64,000 bases of DNA from Komagataeibacter sp. FNDCR2 (GTDB lineage Bacteria > Pseudomonadota > Alphaproteobacteria > Acetobacterales > Acetobacteraceae), in contig NZ_JAIWOU010000001.1 in the NCBI RefSeq assembly GCF_021295395.1, positions 2,496,501 to 2,560,500 on the forward strand, given 5' to 3'. The notes below the pieces were generated by a model. The model had not been told where the DNA came from and did no database searches. It saw only the letters and a list, made by a program, of their open reading frames with translations. Position 1 is the stretch's first letter, and each line of letters begins with the position of its first letter. The position numbers were made by a program, and so were the translations under genes. Below are positions 40,757 to 51,905 of this stretch, one piece after another.

Positions 40757-42000
40757 AGAAGCCGGAAATCCTGACCTTCGGCTGTCGCCTCAATACCTAT
40801 GAGAGCGAGGTCATGCGCACCCACGCCGCGGGGCTGGACAACGTGGTGATCGTCAATACCTGCGCGGTCACCGGCGAGGCCGAACGGCAGGCCCGCCAGG
40901 CGGTGCGCCGCGCCCATCGCGAGCGGCCCGACGCGCGCATCGTGGTGACGGGCTGCGCCGCGCAGATCGACCCCGAACGCTGGGCGGCCCTGCCGGGCGT
41001 GACCCGCGTGCTGGGCAACCGCGAAAAGCTGGAGGCCGCAAGCTGGAGCGAGATGGCGCTGGGTGAAGGCGACGCCGTGTCCGACATCATGGCGGCGAAG
41101 GAGACCGTGCCGCATCTGGTGACCGAATTCGCGGGCCGCACCCGCGCGTTTGTGGAGGTGCAGCAGGGCTGCGATCACCGTTGCACCTTCTGCATCATTC
41201 CCTTCGGGCGCGGGCCGTCGCGTTCCGTGCCGGTAGGGGCCGTGGTGGAGCAGGTGCGCGCACTGGTGGGCGCGGGCTACCGGGAAGTGGTGCTGACGGG
41301 GGTGGACATTACCTCATGGGGCGGGGATCTGCCGGGCAGGCCGTTACTGGGGCAGTTGTGCCGCAGGCTGCTCGCGCTGGTGCCCGAACTGGAGCGGCTG
41401 CGCCTGTCCTCGGTCGATCCGGTCGAGATCGATGCGGATATATGGAAGCTGCTGGAAAGCGAGCCACGCTTCATGCCCTATCTGCACCTTTCGCTTCAGG
41501 CGGGGTGTGATGTCATCCTCAAGCGCATGAAGCGCCGGCATCTGGCGGCGGATGTCGCCGCCGTGGTGGCGCGCGCGCGCGCGTTGCGGCCCGACATCGG
41601 CATCGGGGCGGACATCATCGCCGGTTTCCCGACCGAGGATGAAGAACTGTTTGCCCAGACACTCGAATTCGTGCGTGCGAATGCGCTGCCCTATCTGCAT
41701 GTTTTCCCCTATAGTGAGCGCCCCGGCACGCCCGCCGCGCGCATGCCCGCCGTCGCGGTGGCGGAACGCAAGGCCCGCGCGCTCCGGCTGCGCGGGGCGG
41801 GCGCACAGGCGGCGCATGATTTCCATACCCGCCTGATCGGGAAGCCCCTGCGGGTCCTAATGGAAACGGACACGGCCGGACATTCCGAGGAATTCGCCCC
41901 GGTAAGGCTGGTGGACGGCGCGGTATCCACGGCGGGGCGGATCGAGACGGTGCGCCCGGTGGCGGTTGACGATAACGGACTGGTTGCGGAAATTCTCTGA
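40753..42000 (+). CDS. mtaB: tRNA t6A37 methylthiotransferase MtaB
   Basis: Radical-SAM enzyme that adds a methylthio group to t6A at position 37 of tRNAs reading ANN codons. The 415-residue product has an N-terminal UPF0004 domain with three cluster cysteines (TFGCRLN, NTCAVT, VTGCAAQ), the radical-SAM motif CDHRCTFC, then a TRAM-like end. The GCRLN form and length fit MtaB rather than MiaB or RimO. It overlaps dapF and ends one base before the ftsY start, forming dapF-mtaB-ftsY. Confidence 0.94.
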   Translation: MKKPEILTFGCRLNTYESEVMRTHAAGLDNVVIVNTCAVTGEAERQARQAVRRAHRERPDARIVVTGCAAQIDPERWAALPGVTRVLGNREKLEAASWSEMALGEGDAVSDIMAAKETVPHLVTEFAGRTRAFVEVQQGCDHRCTFCIIPFGRGPSRSVPVGAVVEQVRALVGAGYREVVLTGVDITSWGGDLPGRPLLGQLCRRLLALVPELERLRLSSVDPVEIDADIWKLLESEPRFMPYLHLSLQAGCDVILKRMKRRHLAADVAAVVARARALRPDIGIGADIIAGFPTEDEELFAQTLEFVRANALPYLHVFPYSERPGTPAARMPAVAVAERKARALRLRGAGAQAAHDFHTRLIGKPLRVLMETDTAGHSEEFAPVRLVDGAVSTAGRIETVRPVAVDDNGLVAEIL

Positions 42001-42001
42001 T

Positions 42002-43012
42002 ATGGCTCTTGGTTTCTTCTCACGCCTCAAAGCGGGGCTGTCGCGCTCCACGCAGAAACTCAGCGGTGGCATCGCCGCCGTGTTCACCCGGCGCAAACTC
42101 GATGACCAGGCGCTGGAGGAACTGGAGGATCTGCTGATCTCCGCCGATCTGGGCCCCAGCGTGGCGGAAAAGGTGATTGAGTCCTTCCGCCGCTCCAAAT
42201 TCGGCAAGGAAGTGACGGATGAGGAAGTGCGCGCCGCACTGGCGGAAGAAATCGCGACCATCCTGCAACCCGTCGCCATTCCCTTCGAACCCGACCCCGC
42301 GCACAAGCCGCATGTGGTGCTGGTGGTGGGGGTGAACGGCACCGGCAAGACCACGACCATCGGCAAGATGGCCCGCTTTTATGGTGAGCAGGGCAAGAAG
42401 ATCATGATGGTGGCGGGCGATACCTTCCGCGCCGCCGCCGTGGAGCAGTTGCAGGTCTGGGGGGAGCGCGTGGGCGCCCCCGTCATTTCCGGCAAGCCCA
42501 ACGCGGATGCGGCGGGACTGGCGTTCGAGGCGCTCAAGCGGGGCCGGGCGGAAGGGGTTGACCTGCTGCTGGTCGATACGGCGGGCCGCCTGCACAACAA
42601 GAGCGCGCTGATGGAGGAACTGGCCAAGATCATCCGCGTCATGCGCAAGTTCGATGAGACGGCGCCCCATTCCGTCCTGCTGGTGCTGGACGCCACCACC
42701 GGGCAGAACGCGATGGAACAGGTGCGCGTGTTCAAGGAACTGGTCAATGTGACGGGGCTGGTCGTGACCAAGCTTGATGGTTCGGCGCGCGGCGGCATCG
42801 TGGTGGCGCTGGCCGATGCGTTCGGCCTGCCGGTGCATCTGGTGGGCGTGGGCGAACAGGCGGAAGACCTGCGCCCCTTCTCGGCGGAAGCCTTCGCCAG
42901 GGGACTGGTGGGTGATTCGATCAAGGTCATCGACCGCGAGGAAGAAACGCCGGAAGGCGAAACCGAAAAGGATCAGGCCCCCCAGCCGGAACATGACGCG
43001 CAGGCGGGCTGA
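42002..43012 (+). CDS. ftsY: Signal recognition particle receptor FtsY
   Basis: GTPase that docks SRP-ribosome complexes at the membrane. The 336-residue product has a short N-terminal A region, the helical N domain and the G domain with G1 GVNGTGKTTTIG (110-121), the DTAGR G3 motif and TKLDGSARGG for G4. The acidic extension seen in E. coli is missing, as in other alphaproteobacteria. A clean bidirectional terminator follows. Confidence 0.96.
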   Translation: MALGFFSRLKAGLSRSTQKLSGGIAAVFTRRKLDDQALEELEDLLISADLGPSVAEKVIESFRRSKFGKEVTDEEVRAALAEEIATILQPVAIPFEPDPAHKPHVVLVVGVNGTGKTTTIGKMARFYGEQGKKIMMVAGDTFRAAAVEQLQVWGERVGAPVISGKPNADAAGLAFEALKRGRAEGVDLLLVDTAGRLHNKSALMEELAKIIRVMRKFDETAPHSVLLVLDATTGQNAMEQVRVFKELVNVTGLVVTKLDGSARGGIVVALADAFGLPVHLVGVGEQAEDLRPFSAEAFARGLVGDSIKVIDREEETPEGETEKDQAPQPEHDAQAG

Positions 43013-43056
43013 CCCCAAAAGTAAAGCTTCAGGTGCCGACATGGGGCGCGGCCATG

Positions 43057-43091
43057 AAAAAAAGGGACCATCCCGCGATGGTCCCTTTTTT
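43057..43091. terminator. Bidirectional intrinsic terminator, ftsY / pgk
   Basis: A7-GGGACCATC-CCGC-GATGGTCCC-T6: a perfect nine-base stem flanked by A and T runs, 44 bases after ftsY and 22 before the pgk stop. It serves both convergent operons. Confidence 0.95.
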
Positions 43092-43112
43092 CAGGTCAAC
43101 GCCCGGTCCCGA

Positions 43113-44336
43113 TCAGATCGGCATGGCGCGTTCAAACACGTTTTCCAGCGCCATGATGCCGGGCAGCGTCTTGCCTTCCAGCCATTCAAGGAACGCGCCA
43201 CCCGCGCTTGAGATGTAGGAGATATGCTTCTCCACCCCCGCGTGGCGCAGGGCGGATACCGTATCCCCACCCCCGGCGATGCTTTTCAGCACGCCCGCAT
43301 CGGTCAGCCTGGCCACTTCCGCCGCCACCGCGTTGGTCGCGGCGTCGAAGGGCGGGATCTCGAACGCGCCCAGCGGGCCGTTCCAGACCAGGGTTTTCAG
43401 CGTTGCGATCTTCTGGCTGATCAGCTTCACCGTTTCCGGCCCCACATCCAGCATCATCGCATCCGCCGGGATGGCGTCGATGGGCACCGTGCGGGTGGGC
43501 ACGTTGGCCTGGAAGTCGGTCGCGGTCACGGCATCGACCGGCAGCACGATCTCGCAGCCCTTTTCCTTCGCCTTGTCCATGATCGCGCGCGCGGTGTCGT
43601 GCATCTCCGCTTCCTGCAACGACCGGCCCACGTTCACGCCCCGCGCGGCCAGGAACGTGTTGGCCATGGCCCCGCCGATGATCAGCATTTCCACCTTTTC
43701 AAGCAGGTTGCCGATCAGGTCGAGCTTGGTGGAGATCTTGGCCCCCCCCACGATCGCGCCAACCGGGCGTTCGGGGTTTTCCAGCGCGATGTTCAGCGCG
43801 TTGAGTTCCGTCTCCATAAGCCGCCCGGCAAAGGAGGGCAGCAGGCGCGCCACCCCTTCGGTCGAGGCATGGGCGCGGTGCGCGGCCGAGAACGCGTCAT
43901 TGACGTAGTAATCGGCCAGCGCCGCGAACGCCTTGGCCAGTTCGGGGTCGTTCTGTTCCTCGCCGGGGTAGAAGCGGGTGTTTTCCAGCACCACCACGTC
44001 GCCATCCTGCATGGCGTCAACGGCCTGCTGCGCCACCGGGCCGATACAGTCTTCCACGAACGTGACCGGGCGGCCCAGCGCGTCACCCAGCGCATCGGCG
44101 ATCGGGCCGAGCGACATGGCGGCCACGCGCTGGCCCTTGGGGCGGTCGAAGTGACTGACCACAATCACCCTGGCCCCTTTCTGCGCCAGTTCCTCGATGG
44201 TGGGCAGCAGGCGCAGGATGCGCGTTGCATCGGTAATCTGCCTGTCCCGCACCGGGACGTTCAGATCGGCACGCAGGAGCACCTTTTTGCCCTTGGCATC
44301 AAGCTGGTCCAGCGTCTTGAAATTGGCAGCGGCCAT
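43113..44336 (-). CDS. pgk: Phosphoglycerate kinase
   Basis: Transfers phosphate from 1,3-bisphosphoglycerate to ADP. The 407-residue product has [19 protein letters not shown], the FVEDCIGP segment, [26 protein letters not shown] and the C-terminal [12 protein letters not shown] nucleotide loop. Its ATG abuts the gap stop directly, so the two are tightly coupled. Here it works downstream of the Entner-Doudoroff aldolase. Confidence 0.97.
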
Positions 44337-45359
44337 TTACAATGCTCCGAATACGGCAGCGGTGTCAGCCATGCGGTTGGAGAAGCCCCATTCATTGTCA
44401 TACCAGCTACAGATGCGCACCAGCTTGCCGCCGTCGATCACGGCGGTCTGGGTCGCGTCGAAGGTGGATGAGGCGGGGGAGTGGTTGAAATCCGTGCTGA
44501 CCAGCGGCGCGGTGTTGTAGGCGAGGATACCCTTCAGCGGGCCGCACTCGGCGGCCTTGCGCATGGCCTCGTTCACTTCCTCGACCGAGGCCGGGGCCTT
44601 TTTGGGCACGAAGTCCAGCGATACGAGCGAGACATTGGGGGTCGGCACGCGAATCGCGGTGCCGTCGAGCCGGCCCTTCAGGTGCGGCAGCACCAGCCCC
44701 ACGGCGCGCGCCGCCCCGGTGGAGGTCGGGATCATGTTGAGTGCCGCGCCACGCGCGCGGCGCAGGTCCTTGTGCAGGGTATCCACCGTGCGCTGGTCGC
44801 CGGTGTAGGAATGGATGGTGACCATGTAGCCACATTCGATCCCGAACGTGTCATCGAGCACCTTGGCCACCGGGGCCAGGCAGTTGGTGGTGCATGACGC
44901 GTTGGAGATGACCGTCATGTCGTGGGTCAGGATGTTCTGGTTCACGCCGAACACGATGGTGGCGTCCACGCCCGACGCCGGGGCGGAGACGATCACCTTG
45001 CGCGCGCCCGCGGTGATGAGCTGGGCGGCCTTGGTCTTGTCGGTAAAGCGGCCGGTGCATTCCAGCGCCACGTCCACGCCGTGGAAGGGGACCTTGGTCG
45101 GGTCGGCCTCGGCCGAGACGGTGATCGGGTCGTAGGTGCGGCCATTGGCGGTGATGATGATCTTGTCGTCATCCACCTTCACCTCAGCGGGGAAGCGGCC
45201 ATGTACGCTGTCATAGGACAGCAGGTGCGCGTTGTCCGCCACGCTGCCAAGGTCATTGATGGCAACCGGCACGACATCGGTACGGCCACTTTCGATAATG
45301 CCGCGCAGAACCAGGCGACCGATGCGACCGAAACCGTTTATTGCGACTTTGACAGCCAT
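44337..45359 (-). CDS. gap: Glyceraldehyde-3-phosphate dehydrogenase, type I
   Basis: Oxidises glyceraldehyde 3-phosphate to 1,3-bisphosphoglycerate. The 340-residue product has the NAD fold [16 protein letters not shown], catalytic C156 in [13 protein letters not shown], and [12 protein letters not shown] near the end. A leucine follows the asparagine-aspartate (INDLGSV), as in glycolytic NAD-dependent forms. It lies 33 bases after the transketolase-like gene on the same strand. Confidence 0.97.
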
Positions 45360-45392
45360 TTTCTTATTTTCTCCGTAAGGGGTCAGACATGT

Positions 45393-47327
45393 TCATACGC
45401 TGGCATCGACCGATGCCATTCCGGGCGGGGCCGCTTCAGTGTTCCCTCCCGCGGTCTGGATCGGGGCGCCAGCCAAAACAGGGCGGAGCAGCCGCATCGC
45501 ATCGCGGCAGATCCGCTCCGGCGTGATGTCAGCCGGGCTGTCGGGCCGGTCCGGGCCGGTTGCGGCCCCAAATCCGTCTATACCAACAAACAGCCCGTCC
45601 GGCCCAAGCCAGCGTTCCCATCCGAAACCCGATGCGGCCTCTATCCCGATCCGGGGTGCCGTTCCCAGCACGCCATCACGATACGTCATTTTTTGCGCGG
45701 CGAACAGTTCCCAGCATGGCAGGGACACCACGGCCGCCGCAATTCCCTCGTCCCTGAGCAGCCTGCGGGCGGCCAGCGCCACGATCGCTTCCTGCCCCGT
45801 GGCGACCAGCGTGACCTGCCGGGGGCCTTCGGCCTCGGCCAGCACATAGCCGCCACGCGCGCACAGGTTGGTGAGGCCGTGCTGCTCGCGCTCGGGCAGG
45901 GGGGTGGACAGGGAGAAGGTGGATTCCAGCGTCAGCAGGCTGGGCCCGTCGGTGCGCCGCAGGGCCAGTTCCATGCACTCCATGGTTTCCCGGTGGTCGG
46001 CGGGGCGGAACACCACCATGTTGGGCATGGCGCGCAGGCTGGCCAGCTGTTCCACCGGCTGCCACCCGCCAGCGCTTTCGCCCCGGTGCATGTCATCATC
46101 GGTCAGGAGATAGATGACCTGCTGGCCGGTCATGGCGGCGTAGCGCAGGGCGGGACGCATGCGGTCCACCGCGATGATGGTCGAAGCCCCGCAGGCCAGC
46201 AGCCCGCCATGGATCGCGATGCCGTTGAGCAGCGCCCCCATGCCATTGACCTGCGTGCCACAGGACAGGTCCTGCTCGCCGCCCGCGCGGCGGATGGTGG
46301 AAAGATCGGCCATCATCCCCTGGCGCGAGCGCAGGCAGGTCAGTTCGGGCAGCAGTTCATGCAGGGTCTCGAGTCCCAGCCGCGCCGCGAACGGCGGCGC
46401 GGCCCGGCTGGCCGTGGCCCCGTGCTCACGCCATGACCGCTGCCAGTCCGGCTGCCAGAAGGCGGGGCGCTGGTTGCGCGCCATGCGTTCGAAATCGGCT
46501 TTCTGCCGGTCCTTGAGCAGCCTGCGCAGCCACGAACGCCGCGCGCTGGCCCCACGCCGCGCGGCCCCCGCCCACAGGCCGGGATCATCGACCACGGGGG
46601 GGGCTGGCGTGGTGTCGGGCGTGGCGATGCAGGCGATCAGGCAGGGTTTGTGTGTGCGTTGCAGCGATGCGATGGCGGTTGCGATCTGTTCGGCATTCCC
46701 GGCGTCCACCTTGCGCACCGACCAGCCCGATGCGCTGTAGCGCGGCAGGATGGCGTCCACCTGCGCGCGTTCGCCCTGCCACAGCCCGACCACCAGCGTT
46801 ACGCGGTCGAGCCCCATCTCGCCCGCCAGCGCGGCGCTTTCCAGCGCCACCCCGGTGGAGAGTTCCGTCCAGCAGCCCAGCGCCCAGACGCGATGGTTGA
46901 CGAGCGAGCGGCCAAAGCGGGCCGCCAGCGTCTGTTCCGCCAGCGCCATGCCGATGGCCGCCCCCAGCCCCTGTCCGCTGGGGCCATAGGCCTGCCGCCC
47001 GGTCCCGGCGGCGCGCGCATCGGGGGTGGGGGGCGGGGGAAGCTGCCCCGACAGTTCGGCCATGATGCGGGGAAGGACGCGGTAGAGCGGTGATGACACG
47101 ATGAAGCGGTCCCGGTCCGGCCAGTCCGGGCTGGCGGGGTCGAAGCGCAGGAAGCGACTCCACAGCACCGCGCAGAACCCGGCCATGACGCGCGCCTGAA
47201 GCGCGTGGCGGCTGTCGGGTTCATGAATGCCGATGGCGTGGCGGATCGCCGTCGCCAGCCGTTCAGGCATGCTTGGCGCGGGTGGCCCGGCATCGGCCCG
47301 GGTGATGGAAACCTGGTCTTCTGGCAT
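45393..47327 (-). CDS. Transketolase-like protein with degenerate active site
   Basis: The 644-residue product aligns along its whole length with transketolase, for example DPASPDWPDRDRFIVSS, GPSGQGLGAAIGMALAEQTL, QPVEQLASLRAMPN and the C-terminal domain ARGGYVLAEAEG. Yet the working residues are gone. NGHGS is SSPLYRV (78-84); the thiamine-diphosphate motif GDG is LGC (150-152) and its distal DDN is LWQ (182-184); the REHAM-type glutamate is replaced in GTQVNGM (357-363); THDS is TDDD (409-412) and GEDGPTHQPVE is GESAGGWQPVE (416-426). The middle segment holding another histidine is missing. It heads the operon with gap and pgk, the position of true tkt in many alphaproteobacteria. I infer a pseudoenzyme with a binding or regulatory role; real transketolase must be encoded elsewhere. 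Confidence 0.85.
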   Translation of the reverse strand: MPEDQVSITRADAGPPAPSMPERLATAIRHAIGIHEPDSRHALQARVMAGFCAVLWSRFLRFDPASPDWPDRDRFIVSSPLYRVLPRIMAELSGQLPPPPTPDARAAGTGRQAYGPSGQGLGAAIGMALAEQTLAARFGRSLVNHRVWALGCWTELSTGVALESAALAGEMGLDRVTLVVGLWQGERAQVDAILPRYSASGWSVRKVDAGNAEQIATAIASLQRTHKPCLIACIATPDTTPAPPVVDDPGLWAGAARRGASARRSWLRRLLKDRQKADFERMARNQRPAFWQPDWQRSWREHGATASRAAPPFAARLGLETLHELLPELTCLRSRQGMMADLSTIRRAGGEQDLSCGTQVNGMGALLNGIAIHGGLLACGASTIIAVDRMRPALRYAAMTGQQVIYLLTDDDMHRGESAGGWQPVEQLASLRAMPNMVVFRPADHRETMECMELALRRTDGPSLLTLESTFSLSTPLPEREQHGLTNLCARGGYVLAEAEGPRQVTLVATGQEAIVALAARRLLRDEGIAAAVVSLPCWELFAAQKMTYRDGVLGTAPRIGIEAASGFGWERWLGPDGLFVGIDGFGAATGPDRPDSPADITPERICRDAMRLLRPVLAGAPIQTAGGNTEAAPPGMASVDASV

Positions 47328-47462
47328 TCGGCGTCGTCCATGTGCGCGGCAGGAACGGTGGGTGCCGCGGTCCCATGACTACCGTCGCATGCCCGTGGCG
47401 GCAATATTGCGCGCCCGTGGCCCCTATGCCGCGCGGGGGGGATCCTGTATCGGTTGGGGGCC

Positions 47463-47927
47463 ATGTTCGCTCTGTCACGCCCCTTTGTCCGCCGTGCCGC
47501 CCTTGTCGCCGCCATGTGCCTGCCGGTGGTGACGGGGTGCAGGCTGGTCAGCCAGAAAACGTTCGACCGCCATGCGGGCGACCCGCCAATCCTGCCTGAA
47601 ACCCCGCCGCCGCCCGTTCCCGGCAGTGACCTGCCCGCCCTTGTCACGATCGTGGCGGGAACGCCGGAGGCACAGTGGAAACCGGCCGTCAGGGCCGCCG
47701 TGGCGCAGGCGCTTGCCCGTCGGCCCAATGCGCTGTTCACGGTGGTGGTGGAAGTCCCCTCCGGCCCTGATGGCGCGGAGCCGGACATGCGCCACGCCGT
47801 GGAGGCGAATGGCCAGCCCGTGCTGCAGGCCGTGATGGACGCGGGCGCCGGCGCCGCCCAGACGGAACTGGACGCCCACACCGTCTCCCCCACAGGCGCA
47901 ACCCAGACCTGCATTTACGTGCAGTAG
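47463..47927 (+). CDS. Putative lipoprotein
   Basis: A 154-residue protein with a lipoprotein signal: positive N terminus, hydrophobic core and lipobox VVTGC near residue 26. The mature part starts RLVSQKTFDRHAGDPP, has a proline-rich linker and a small alpha/beta-looking domain with VTIVAGTPE and LFTVVVEVPSG, the kind of repeat-free domain seen in OmpA-like or DUF lipoproteins. I do not recognise a family. It diverges from the transketolase-like gene and precedes hemA by 187 bases. Confidence 0.65.
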   Translation: MFALSRPFVRRAALVAAMCLPVVTGCRLVSQKTFDRHAGDPPILPETPPPPVPGSDLPALVTIVAGTPEAQWKPAVRAAVAQALARRPNALFTVVVEVPSGPDGAEPDMRHAVEANGQPVLQAVMDAGAGAAQTELDAHTVSPTGATQTCIYVQ

Positions 47928-48114
47928 CCCAATGCGGTTTTGCAATTCCTGCTTCCGTCATGCCATAAAGGGTACCGCGATGGTGGTTAACCGCCAGCAA
48001 TGACGCCGTAAGCCCGAACGCAGCGCGCCCCGCATGGGCCACCCGGACGGTGATCGTAATAAATTAAAGGCCCCGGAATGCAGCAAGCCGGGCTGTGCAT
48101 GGAGAAAAGCAGCA

Positions 48115-49395
48115 GTGTCCAGTAAGCATGTGGATGGACATCCGTTCTTCCGGTTCTGCCGGACGGCGCTGGAGGGCATCCGCGCACAGGGTCGATACCG
48201 GCAGTTCACGCCACTGGCGCGCCAGGCCGAGCGTTATCCCCTGTATGACCAGCCGGAAACCGTCGCCACGCCTTCAACCCCCGCCTGCCCGCAGGACCGG
48301 GAGGTCGTGGTCTGGTCATCCAACGACTATCTGGGCATGGGTGTGGACCCCGTGGTGGTGGAGGCCGCCATCCAGGCCATTCATGAACATGGCGCGGGCG
48401 CGGGCGGCACGCGCAACATCGCGGGCACCAGCCCCCTGCATACGGCCATCGAGGCCGAACTGGCCGACCTGCATGGCAAGGAAGCGGGGCTTCTGTTCGT
48501 GTCCGGCTACGTGTCCAACCAGGCCACGCTCCAGACCATCCTGACCTCCATGCCCGGCTGGATCTGCTTTTCCGACCGGCTGAACCATGCCTCCATGATC
48601 GCGGGGATCAAGGGCGCGCGTGGCTCCAGCACCGTCATTTTCGAACATAACGACCTGGCCGACCTCGAAGCCAAGCTGGCCGCCGCCCCCAAGGACGCGC
48701 CCAAGCTGATCGCGTTCGAGAGCGTGTATTCCATGGATGGCGATGTGTCGGACATCGCGGGCACCTGCGCGCTGGCGCGCAAATACGGCGCCATGACCTA
48801 TCTGGACGAAGTCCACGCCGTGGGCCTGTATGGCGAGGAAGGCGGCGGCGTATCGCAGCGCGATGGCGTGGCCGACCAGGTCGATATCATCGAAGGGACG
48901 CTGGCCAAGGGTTTTGGCGTGCATGGCGGCTACATCACCGCGTCGAGCGATATTGTGGAATACCTGCGGCTTTCGGCCTCGGGCTTCATCTTCACCACCT
49001 CGCTGCCGCCCGCGGTCGTGGCCGCGGCGCTGGCCAGCGTGCGGCTGGTGCGCAAGGATGGCTGGCGGCGCGAGCGCATGTTCGAGCGCGTCAACACCTT
49101 CCGTGAAAAGCTGCGCAGGGCCAATGTGCCCTTTACCATGACGGCAAGCCACATCGTGCCGATCCCGGTGGGCGATGCGAAGCGCTGCCGCGAACTGAGC
49201 GACCGGCTGCTCAGTGATTACGGGATCTACGCCACGCCCATCAATTATCCCACCGTGCCGCGCGGGACCGAGCGCCTGCGCCTGACGCCGGGGCCGTTCC
49301 ACACGGATGCGATGATGGATGACATGGTGGCCGCCCTGACCCACCTGCTGCGCCTGAACGACCTCAAGACGCAGCCGGTGCCCGCCATGGCCTGA
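48115..49395 (+). CDS. hemA: 5-aminolevulinate synthase
   Basis: PLP enzyme of the C4 (Shemin) route that condenses glycine and succinyl-CoA to 5-aminolevulinate, first step of heme synthesis. The 426-residue product has [38 protein letters not shown] and the PLP lysine K265 in [15 protein letters not shown] prefer a GTG start at 48115 with GGAGA upstream; an in-frame ATG at 48034 would add 27 unlikely residues. Alphaproteobacteria use this route, and glycine use here meets the gcv system. Confidence 0.95.
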
Positions 49396-50239: not shown

Positions 50240-50441
50240 GGGTTTGCTCCGTTATCATGTCGGGATAGGGTGTCTGTAACGGATCGGGCTGCGGAAAGGA
50301 ATGGCCATGCTGGCCGCAGGGGGGCATGGCGGTTGCCGGGGGGCCATAAGGCCGCTAAGTCGTGATGGGCCTGTCACGATCGCGCGGGGCCGCGCACGGG
50401 CAGCCTATGAACAAAGCCGACCTGCCCATGGAGAAGCGTGC

Positions 50442-51905
50442 GTGCCTGAGCATTCGATCATACCTCTTGCCCGTCGGTATATGCGTACGGCGGTTACGGC
50501 TGTCCTGGCCATTTCGGTTGCCGGTTGCTCCCTGCATCGCTATTCGCCCGTGCGGCTGGTGTCGCACATGTTCGGCCCTTCGCCCGGCCCGCTGATCGGC
50601 ATGGTCTCGGCCGATGAGCCCCAGGCCACGCTGGTCGGGCGCGACATTCTCCAGCGCGGCGGCAACGCGGCGGACGCGGCGGCGGCCATGGGCATGGCGC
50701 TGGCGGTCACGCTGCCTTCACGCGCCTCGCTTGGCGCGGGCGGGGCGTGCCTGGCCTACAGGCCGGGCGACCAGAATGGCGGGCGCGCCTTCATGTTCCT
50801 GCCCGTCGCGGGCACGGTCACGGATCCCGCCATGCCGCGCGCGGACCGTCCGGCCTCGGTGCCCATGCTGGCGCGCGGGCTTTATCTCATGCATCTGCAA
50901 TATGGCTCGGCGGCCTTTTCGGATCTGCTGCCCGATGCGATCACGCTGGCCGCGAACGGCATCAATGTCAGCCGCCAGCTTGCCACCGATCTTGCCGCCG
51001 TGCAGGTTCCGCTACTGGCCGATCCGGGGGTGCGGGTCGTGTTCAGTCGTTCGGATGGCAAGGCGCTGGCCGAAGGTGATGCGCTGGTGCAGACGCATCT
51101 GTCCGGCGCGCTGGACCAGATTCGCGGCATGGGCGTGGGCGACCTGTATAACGGCGCGCTGGGGCAGTCCTTTGTCGCGGGCAGTCAGGCGGCGGGCGGT
51201 GGATTGCAGATGAGCGACCTGCGGCAGGCCATTCCATCCGAACGCCTGCCGCTGGTGGTCAGAAGCGGTGAAACGCAGGTCGCCTTCCTGCCGCCGCCCG
51301 CCGATGGGGGGCTGGGCAGCGCGCTGGCGTTCCGCGCCGCCTCCACTTCCGACGCCACGCAGCGCGCGCAGGCCAGTGTTGCGGCATGGCGCGCCCAGAA
51401 TGGCAACCGCCAGACCGGAACGGGGGATGACATGACCGCCCGCGCGCAGGCCATCGTCAATGCCGGTGGCGGGGCGACTGGCGGCCTGCTGCCAGCACTT
51501 CCGGCCTCGACCTCGTTCACGGTGGTTGACCATGGTGGCATGGCGGTCGCCTGTAGCGTGAGCATGGACAACCTGTTCGGTACCGGGCGCATGGCGGGCA
51601 ATACCGGCATTGTTCTGGGCGCGTCGCCCGCGCGGGTGCCGCAACCGTTGCTGACGGCGGCCGTCGCCTCTCAGGGGCGCGCCTTGCGGGCGGTCGCCGC
51701 CGGTTCGGGCCAGAATGACGCCGCCGCCGCCGTAGGGATCGCGATGCGCCAGATCATGGCCGGGCAGACGCCCGACGCCCACCCGGTGACGGCGCAGGGC
51801 CGTGTCAACGCCATATCCTGCCCGCAGGGCCTGCCGGGGGATGCGTCAACCTGCGTCGCCGCCACCGATCCGCGTGGCGCGGGGCTGGCGCTCGGGCCGC
51901 GCTAG
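50442..51905 (+). CDS. Gamma-glutamyltransferase-like lipoprotein, degenerate active site
   Basis: A 487-residue protein with a lipoprotein signal (MRTAVTAVLAISVAGC) and a fold related to gamma-glutamyltranspeptidase: QRGGNAADAAAAMGMALAVTLP near the start and STSFTVVDHGGMAVACSVSMDNLFGTG in the second half. Compared with the enzyme, the nucleophile threonine is serine (S356), the substrate arginine segment FRE is missing, the MDDF acidic motif is lost and the PPSSGG oxyanion loop is not found. It may be inactive or have another substrate. I chose GTG at 50442 with GGAGAAG five bases upstream; ATG at 50481 would start right at the signal. Confidence 0.75.
   Translation: MPEHSIIPLARRYMRTAVTAVLAISVAGCSLHRYSPVRLVSHMFGPSPGPLIGMVSADEPQATLVGRDILQRGGNAADAAAAMGMALAVTLPSRASLGAGGACLAYRPGDQNGGRAFMFLPVAGTVTDPAMPRADRPASVPMLARGLYLMHLQYGSAAFSDLLPDAITLAANGINVSRQLATDLAAVQVPLLADPGVRVVFSRSDGKALAEGDALVQTHLSGALDQIRGMGVGDLYNGALGQSFVAGSQAAGGGLQMSDLRQAIPSERLPLVVRSGETQVAFLPPPADGGLGSALAFRAASTSDATQRAQASVAAWRAQNGNRQTGTGDDMTARAQAIVNAGGGATGGLLPALPASTSFTVVDHGGMAVACSVSMDNLFGTGRMAGNTGIVLGASPARVPQPLLTAAVASQGRALRAVAAGSGQNDAAAAVGIAMRQIMAGQTPDAHPVTAQGRVNAISCPQGLPGDASTCVAATDPRGAGLALGPR

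Follow-up and report, generated by a model that had tools for sequence, protein, structure and literature searches.

A probable transketolase pseudoenzyme at the head of the gap-pgk operon of Komagataeibacter, and the apparently recurrent erosion of its active site among the Acetobacteraceae

The window analysed here is a stretch of 64,000 nucleotides from the genome of Komagataeibacter sp. FNDCR2 (contig NZ_JAIWOU010000001.1, positions 2,496,501 to 2,560,500). It contains an operon with the order tkt-like gene, gap and pgk, all on one strand, with a spacer of 33 bp between the tkt-like gene and gap (Table 1). The tkt-like frame runs from an ATG at 47327 to a stop at 45393 on the minus strand and is open over all 644 codons, as a preliminary description of the locus had stated. 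Its product matches the Pfam profiles Transketolase_N (3.1e-25), Transket_pyr (1.8e-17) and Transketolase_C_1 (3.4e-29), each match passing its gathering cut-off, and the PP, Pyr and C-terminal domains of transketolase are all present in the correct order, both by Pfam and by PDB homologues, the best of which is a transketolase (1.3e-71). The score against the NCBIfam equivalog TIGR00232, 286.3 bits, is below the cut-off of 682.25 bits. A split-chain transketolase with separate genes for the N- and C-terminal halves is ruled out by the single chain of 644 residues. Codons 1-19 are highly variable among relatives and Met20 is nearly invariant (window 47250-47330); the protein might start at either the first Met or Met20.

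A scan of positions 42000-49000 against Rfam returned no RNA element at the gathering score. A scan for promoters and terminators gave one promoter-like site, on the opposite strand, and four terminator-like sites (2.7 expected). Plasmid records gave no match at 1e-60. Elsewhere in the window (50301-51905, plus strand) lies a homologue of gamma-glutamyltranspeptidase with a lipoprotein-like start; its best PF01019 stretch spans only profile positions 1-257 of 512, and the remainder of the enzyme, its C-terminal half, may likewise have degenerated.

Table 1. Genes of the operon and regions of the tkt-like protein, with positions in the window
Feature	Position	Strand	Evidence
tkt-like pseudoenzyme gene (probable), 644 aa, first in operon	45393..47327	-	ORF, Pfam, PDB match, alignments, dN/dS
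gap, glyceraldehyde-3-phosphate dehydrogenase, 33 bp downstream of the tkt-like gene	44337..45359	-	ORF, Pfam
pgk, phosphoglycerate kinase	43113..44336	-	ORF, Pfam
Residues 151-158 (GCWTELST), replaced GDG...E part of the thiamine-diphosphate/Mg motif	46854..46877	-	two alignments
Inter-domain linker, residues 246-304, Arg/Trp-rich, lowest dN/dS in Komagataeibacter (0.085)	46416..46592	-	dN/dS, conservation
Transketolase C-terminal domain, residues 490-610, best-kept domain	45498..45860	-	Pfam, dN/dS, conservation

In a multiple alignment with Escherichia coli TktA and family members, the tkt-like protein keeps one of the 18 TktA active-site residues, H26; a four-row alignment places an ADL motif such that D381 also appears kept, and the number of retained residues is one or two, depending on the alignment. 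The letters at the 18 positions were checked by alignment, and their roles are those we take the TktA residues to have. Replaced or missing are H66, H100, D155/G156, E160, N185, I187, H261, R358, S385, E411, F434, H461, D469, H473 and R520. The GDG...N motif for thiamine diphosphate (ThDP) and metal is absent together with the glutamate E411, and H26 is the sole survivor of the catalytic and substrate-binding histidines and arginines (H26, H66, H100, H261, H461, H473, R358, R520). The preliminary description had noticed that nearly every functional motif is replaced, which the TktA alignments bear out. Its statement that the protein aligns end to end with transketolase is true of the three domains and not of each loop, because column mapping finds about 32 residues net absent between C243 and W294 of TktA, the stretch that contains H261. 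Clear homology to an enzyme together with the loss of its catalytic residues, as expected of a pseudoenzyme, is found in the tkt-like protein. An AlphaFold prediction from the protein and 14 Komagataeibacter relatives has a pLDDT of 43.2 and a pTM of 0.39, too low to support a structural reading.

The genome has two further transketolase (TKT) genes outside the operon, each encoding 18/18 active-site residues and each followed by a gene for a transaldolase-phosphoglucose isomerase fusion: the true tkt that the preliminary description proposed to look for elsewhere exists twice. The tkt-like protein is 27-28% identical to these TKTs. The two paralogous clusters are at G000:C1 ~272000-290000 (L053) and 2230000-2246000 (L052), and their TKT proteins are 84% identical to each other.

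Across 14 Komagataeibacter pairs, the dN/dS (NG86) of the tkt-like gene is 0.079-0.211. Eight pairs taken from other genera, in which one or both copies are eroded, gave 0.126-0.253, and intact operon TKTs gave 0.061 and 0.108 in two pairs. For these pairs, gap yielded 0.021-0.216 and pgk (often a short piece) 0.023-0.363. In six pairs from four Komagataeibacter-group genomes, dN/dS was 0.064-0.089 for the true TKT versus 0.158-0.216 for the TKT-like gene: the constraint on the latter is real, but it is relaxed, with a dN/dS exceeding that of the enzyme by a factor of 2.4-2.9. When neutral evolution of the window's coding sequence was simulated, a distance of 0.06 produced a mean of 2.9 stops, with 62 of 1000 runs open; at 0.27 and at 0.54, the largest of the three distances, the means were 10.2 and 16.6 stops and 0/1000 runs were open each time. 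Among the eroded rows listed by the family search, only L023 and L036 have a stop, and in both it is the frame's own last stop, which the alignment overran. The TKT-like frame is preserved by purifying selection and is not decaying. This had been argued from the absence of stops and shifts, with a dN/dS below 1 proposed as the check, and it agrees with the dN/dS of 0.08-0.21 in the 14 Komagataeibacter pairs and with the about 17 stops expected neutrally at a distance of 0.54.

A related-locus search recovered 14 Komagataeibacter loci with 80-90% identity to the tkt-like gene. Across the family, 197 of 200 genomes have some match at 1e-10; because this count includes true TKTs, a subset of operon copies was read individually. 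The resulting alignment has 89 rows, two being the genome's own off-operon TKTs. The active-site residues retained number 17-18 in 34 of its operon copies and 0-15 in 51; the two others are contig-edge pieces (L059 and L060, which match at every one of the 8 and 6 sites that can be read) and enter neither count. Among the 51 eroded rows are some that are redundant within Komagataeibacter and a few that are incomplete; behind them stand 35 genomes, that of the window and named Komagataeibacter records. Expressed by genome, the gap-linked copies examined are intact in 34 genomes (31 genera) and eroded in 36 (21 genera), and intermediate cases exist: L036 keeps 15 of 18 residues, L019 and L020 keep 11, L024 seven and L023 six. 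The locus contains gap for 34/34 intact and 35/36 eroded copies, and pgk for 25/34 and 32/36, respectively, some stretches ending too early. Intact tkt genes are thus found before gap in relatives, in line with the proposal that the tkt-like gene occupies the operon place of a true tkt.

Twenty further genomes of genus g31, picked because the search had matched them, each carry an eroded copy (1-4 of 18 residues) that directly adjoins gap-pgk, and the gene is conserved in relatives in this sense. For another g31 genome, G203, that search lists no match at 1e-60. In G117, also of g31, the tkt-like gene (L146 6074-7999, minus strand) lies away from gap-pgk and adjoins aconitase B; its sequence is very divergent, its frame is intact and it still points away from its counterpart of the PLP enzyme that neighbours the window's copy (73% identity between the two PLP enzymes). 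Fifteen sampled genomes have no tkt-like gene in the ~4 kb read upstream of gap, and tblastn with nine queries against 17 loci found no remnant there at 0.01. Shorter copies are those of L109 (genome G043; ~534 aa, 0/18 residues) and L056 (G178; ~569 aa, 2/18), with starts chosen by the analyst; they perhaps represent a further reduction towards a smaller protein. Outside the family, 219 of 289 genomes of the class were matched at 1e-50. The matches listed span only about residues 229-636, as do those of intact TKTs, and each of eight TKTs fetched keeps 17-18 of the 18 residues; by this indirect test, no eroded copy was seen outside the family among the matches listed and the eight TKTs fetched.

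Loss of the active site goes together with possession of a second transketolase. An off-operon TKT is present in 36/36 genomes with an eroded operon copy, at least one per genome keeping 17-18 of the 18 residues, versus 6/34 genomes with an intact copy (Fisher p 5e-14 by genome and 7e-10 by genus, kinship ignored). A second TKT therefore looks like a precondition for erosion of the operon copy.

How often the active site was lost was addressed with trees. The all-row TKT, gap and GAP+PGK trees omit redundant Komagataeibacter rows and contig-edge fragments, and the GAP+PGK tree also omits the long-branched L090, L110 and L111, some near-duplicates, L114 and L115. In the all-row TKT tree, most eroded copies form one clade, with L024 outside, and many branches are very long; we read this single clade as long-branch attraction. 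In the gap and GAP+PGK trees the eroded carriers are scattered, and the latter needs a minimum of seven changes between the intact and eroded states. AU tests on GAP+PGK, with groups chosen by us after the tree had been inspected, rejected a single clade both for 33 eroded carriers (p=0.00021) and for the 15 eroded carriers outside the acetic-acid-bacterial group (p 0.019); a grouping of L030 with g54 was not rejected (p 0.405). When 22 eroded rows were added one at a time to the intact TKT set, L024 and L030 each came to lie beside an intact copy of the same genus (L077, support 100, and L087, support 99.1), L036 and L019 beside L079 (93 and 95), L020 beside L077 (81) and the window's row beside L061/L062 (89); most strongly eroded rows had no well-supported place. 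We conclude from these trees that there were probably more than three, and at least three, independent losses of the active site, and erosion thus appears recurrent within the family; transfer of parts of the operon is also conceivable.

The erosion is uneven along the protein. Columns invariant in 32 intact operon copies were scored in 20 eroded copies from different lineages (both sets chosen by us): 27/36 are kept in the C-terminal domain and 8/11 in the linker, versus 35/86 in PP and 20/71 in Pyr. Together, the C-terminal domain and linker keep 35/47 columns and the two thiamine-binding domains 55/157 (Fisher p 2e-6), part of the contrast between the C-terminal domain and PP/Pyr being expected because all 18 active-site residues sit in PP and Pyr. 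The pooled dN/dS values from Komagataeibacter are 0.085 in the linker, 0.135 in the C-terminal domain, 0.192 in PP, 0.221 in Pyr and 0.307 in the tail. Judged by conservation and dN/dS, the C-terminal domain and linker survive the loss of catalysis best. Eroded and intact operon copies, in sets chosen by us, share 121 conserved columns in one comparison and 127 in another, and at 41 of the 127 the residue is not the majority one in 33 off-operon TKTs, TktA included (for example R146, W148, R269 and W573). Many of these 41 residues are also the consensus in the eight alphaproteobacterial TKTs from outside the family, six of which have a gap match within the stretch fetched. The 41 columns may therefore mark an old gap-linked type of TKT and not a special function, and the conserved columns of the eroded copies may reflect folding alone.

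On balance, we favour the reading that the tkt-like gene encodes a transketolase pseudoenzyme which selection maintains for a non-catalytic role, and this role may go back to the catalytic enzyme of the operon. The roles named in the preliminary description (scaffold, regulator or metabolite sensor for the glycolytic operon) would be candidates. Our reading builds on what is seen in the sequence: the residues for ThDP, metal and substrate have been lost, the frame is under selection, intact TKTs are encoded elsewhere and relatives have an intact TKT before gap. The gain of a second TKT would have released the operon copy from catalysis and not from a non-catalytic second task; the two cofactor-binding domains would then have eroded, and the C-terminal domain and linker stayed. 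The TKT-like protein, probably still a dimer, could serve as a docking or allosteric partner via the C-terminal domain and linker. From the operon place and the kept domain, its most plausible partners would be the triose-phosphate enzymes GapA and Pgk encoded downstream, and docking would replace a contact formerly made by an active TKT supplying glyceraldehyde-3-phosphate. We put forward this particular mechanism tentatively: it seems to us the likeliest one, but taken by itself it is less probable than not. Partnership with gap is not absolute, because the gene of G117 left gap yet kept its other neighbour. GAP also has no clear co-change with the loss of the tkt-like gene in 16 genomes without it before gap (including L114, where only ~0.65 kb upstream of gap is on the contig and absence is unsure): of 148 near-invariant GAP columns (85 rows), eight are changed in at least three of the 16 genomes, one being the start residue, and most changes are within one or two clades. 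Both G117 and the lack of GAP co-change speak against strict dependence on gap linkage.

The main rival is a regulatory subunit, that is, a pseudoenzyme that pairs with an active TKT subunit and lowers or tunes its activity. The active sites of transketolase sit at the dimer interface, the fold is retained by homology, and eroded copy and active TKT occur together in 36/36 genomes. However, this co-occurrence is expected without any contact, because the cell requires an active TKT in any case; TKTs from inside and outside the operon are only distantly related (27-28% identity between the window's protein and those of its own genome), and 41/127 columns kept in the eroded copies do not have the majority residue of off-operon TKTs. 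We therefore think such a subunit unlikely. A remodelled pocket that binds a sugar phosphate or another ligand and passes a signal to the operon or to the enzymes encoded there could account for some of the new residues fixed at the former site in 18/18 Komagataeibacter-group rows (W at D155, V at E411, T at F434 and D at H461), but the former site varies between lineages, the window's protein lacks R358 and R520, and Pyr is the least constrained of the three domains: a metabolite sensor seems quite improbable to us. A new, ThDP-independent enzyme activity would fit homology across three domains and strong selection; with no new residue at the former catalytic columns common to all eroded lineages, a test which activities of single lineages would escape, we give it very little credence. 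Even less plausible is that the frame is kept for its mRNA only, as a leader or for translational coupling to gap-pgk, to which the 33 bp spacer and the position before gap in 35/36 eroded genomes would point: the constraint acts at the amino-acid level, the G117 gene is intact though parted from gap, the 15 sampled genomes do without the gene, and there is no Rfam match. Least credible is a decaying pseudogene on its way to being lost, suggested by its absence without remnant before gap in those 15 genomes and by the 2.4-2.9-fold dN/dS, but opposed by dN/dS values of 0.08-0.25, the absence of real internal stops among the eroded rows listed by the family search (those of L023 and L036 being artefacts of alignment overrun) and the lack of open neutral runs at distances of 0.27 or 0.54; for Komagataeibacter neutral decay is refuted by dN/dS and simulation, and slow loss of the gene is possible in other lineages.

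Compared with bacterial transketolase (TktA, TIGR00232; PF00456/PF02779/PF22613), the tkt-like protein has the same three domains and, in relatives, the same place before gap, but it keeps only one or two of 18 active-site residues and scores 286 versus 682 bits. Vertebrate transketolase-like protein 1 (TKTL1) is a TKT paralogue with an altered active-site region and doubtful TKT activity; it lacks a short segment and has most of the active-site residues. Both are TKT homologues with an altered active site, but the tkt-like protein is bacterial and has nearly all of these residues replaced, apparently recurrently. The related C-terminal domain of pyruvate dehydrogenase E1 beta, a member of the ThDP-enzyme superfamily, is a docking site for a partner protein; for the tkt-like protein, docking is a proposal. 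With pseudoenzymes in general, for example bacterial pseudokinases (PMC12599244), the tkt-like protein shares homology without catalytic residues, under selection. Searches of the open-access literature (preprints only as PMC copies) found no ThDP-enzyme pseudoenzyme with repeated loss at one operon place and, by title and opening of the abstract, neither an inactive bacterial transketolase nor the tkt-like gene as a pseudoenzyme. Four tkt genes are named in the genome report of Gluconacetobacter xylinus CGMCC 2955 (PMC5908849), one of which is probably the counterpart of the tkt-like protein. New beyond the preliminary description is that the loss seems to be recurrent, accompanies possession of another TKT and leaves the C-terminal domain and linker in place.

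It is possible, though in our view not probable, that an old moonlighting function resides in the C-terminal domain and linker of the gap-linked TKT of Acetobacteraceae and was exposed by repeated pseudoenzyme formation after each gain of a second TKT; such a function perhaps extends to other Alphaproteobacteria. In practice, the tkt-like protein passes the Pfam cut-offs, and its annotation as tkt could add a false reaction to metabolic models of cellulose producers. If the interpretation is true, a central metabolic enzyme was stripped of its chemistry on several occasions within a single bacterial family, with a non-catalytic surface preserved each time. The family would then offer a natural experiment in which catalysis and the moonlighting role of one enzyme come apart, and it would point to the C-terminal domain and linker.
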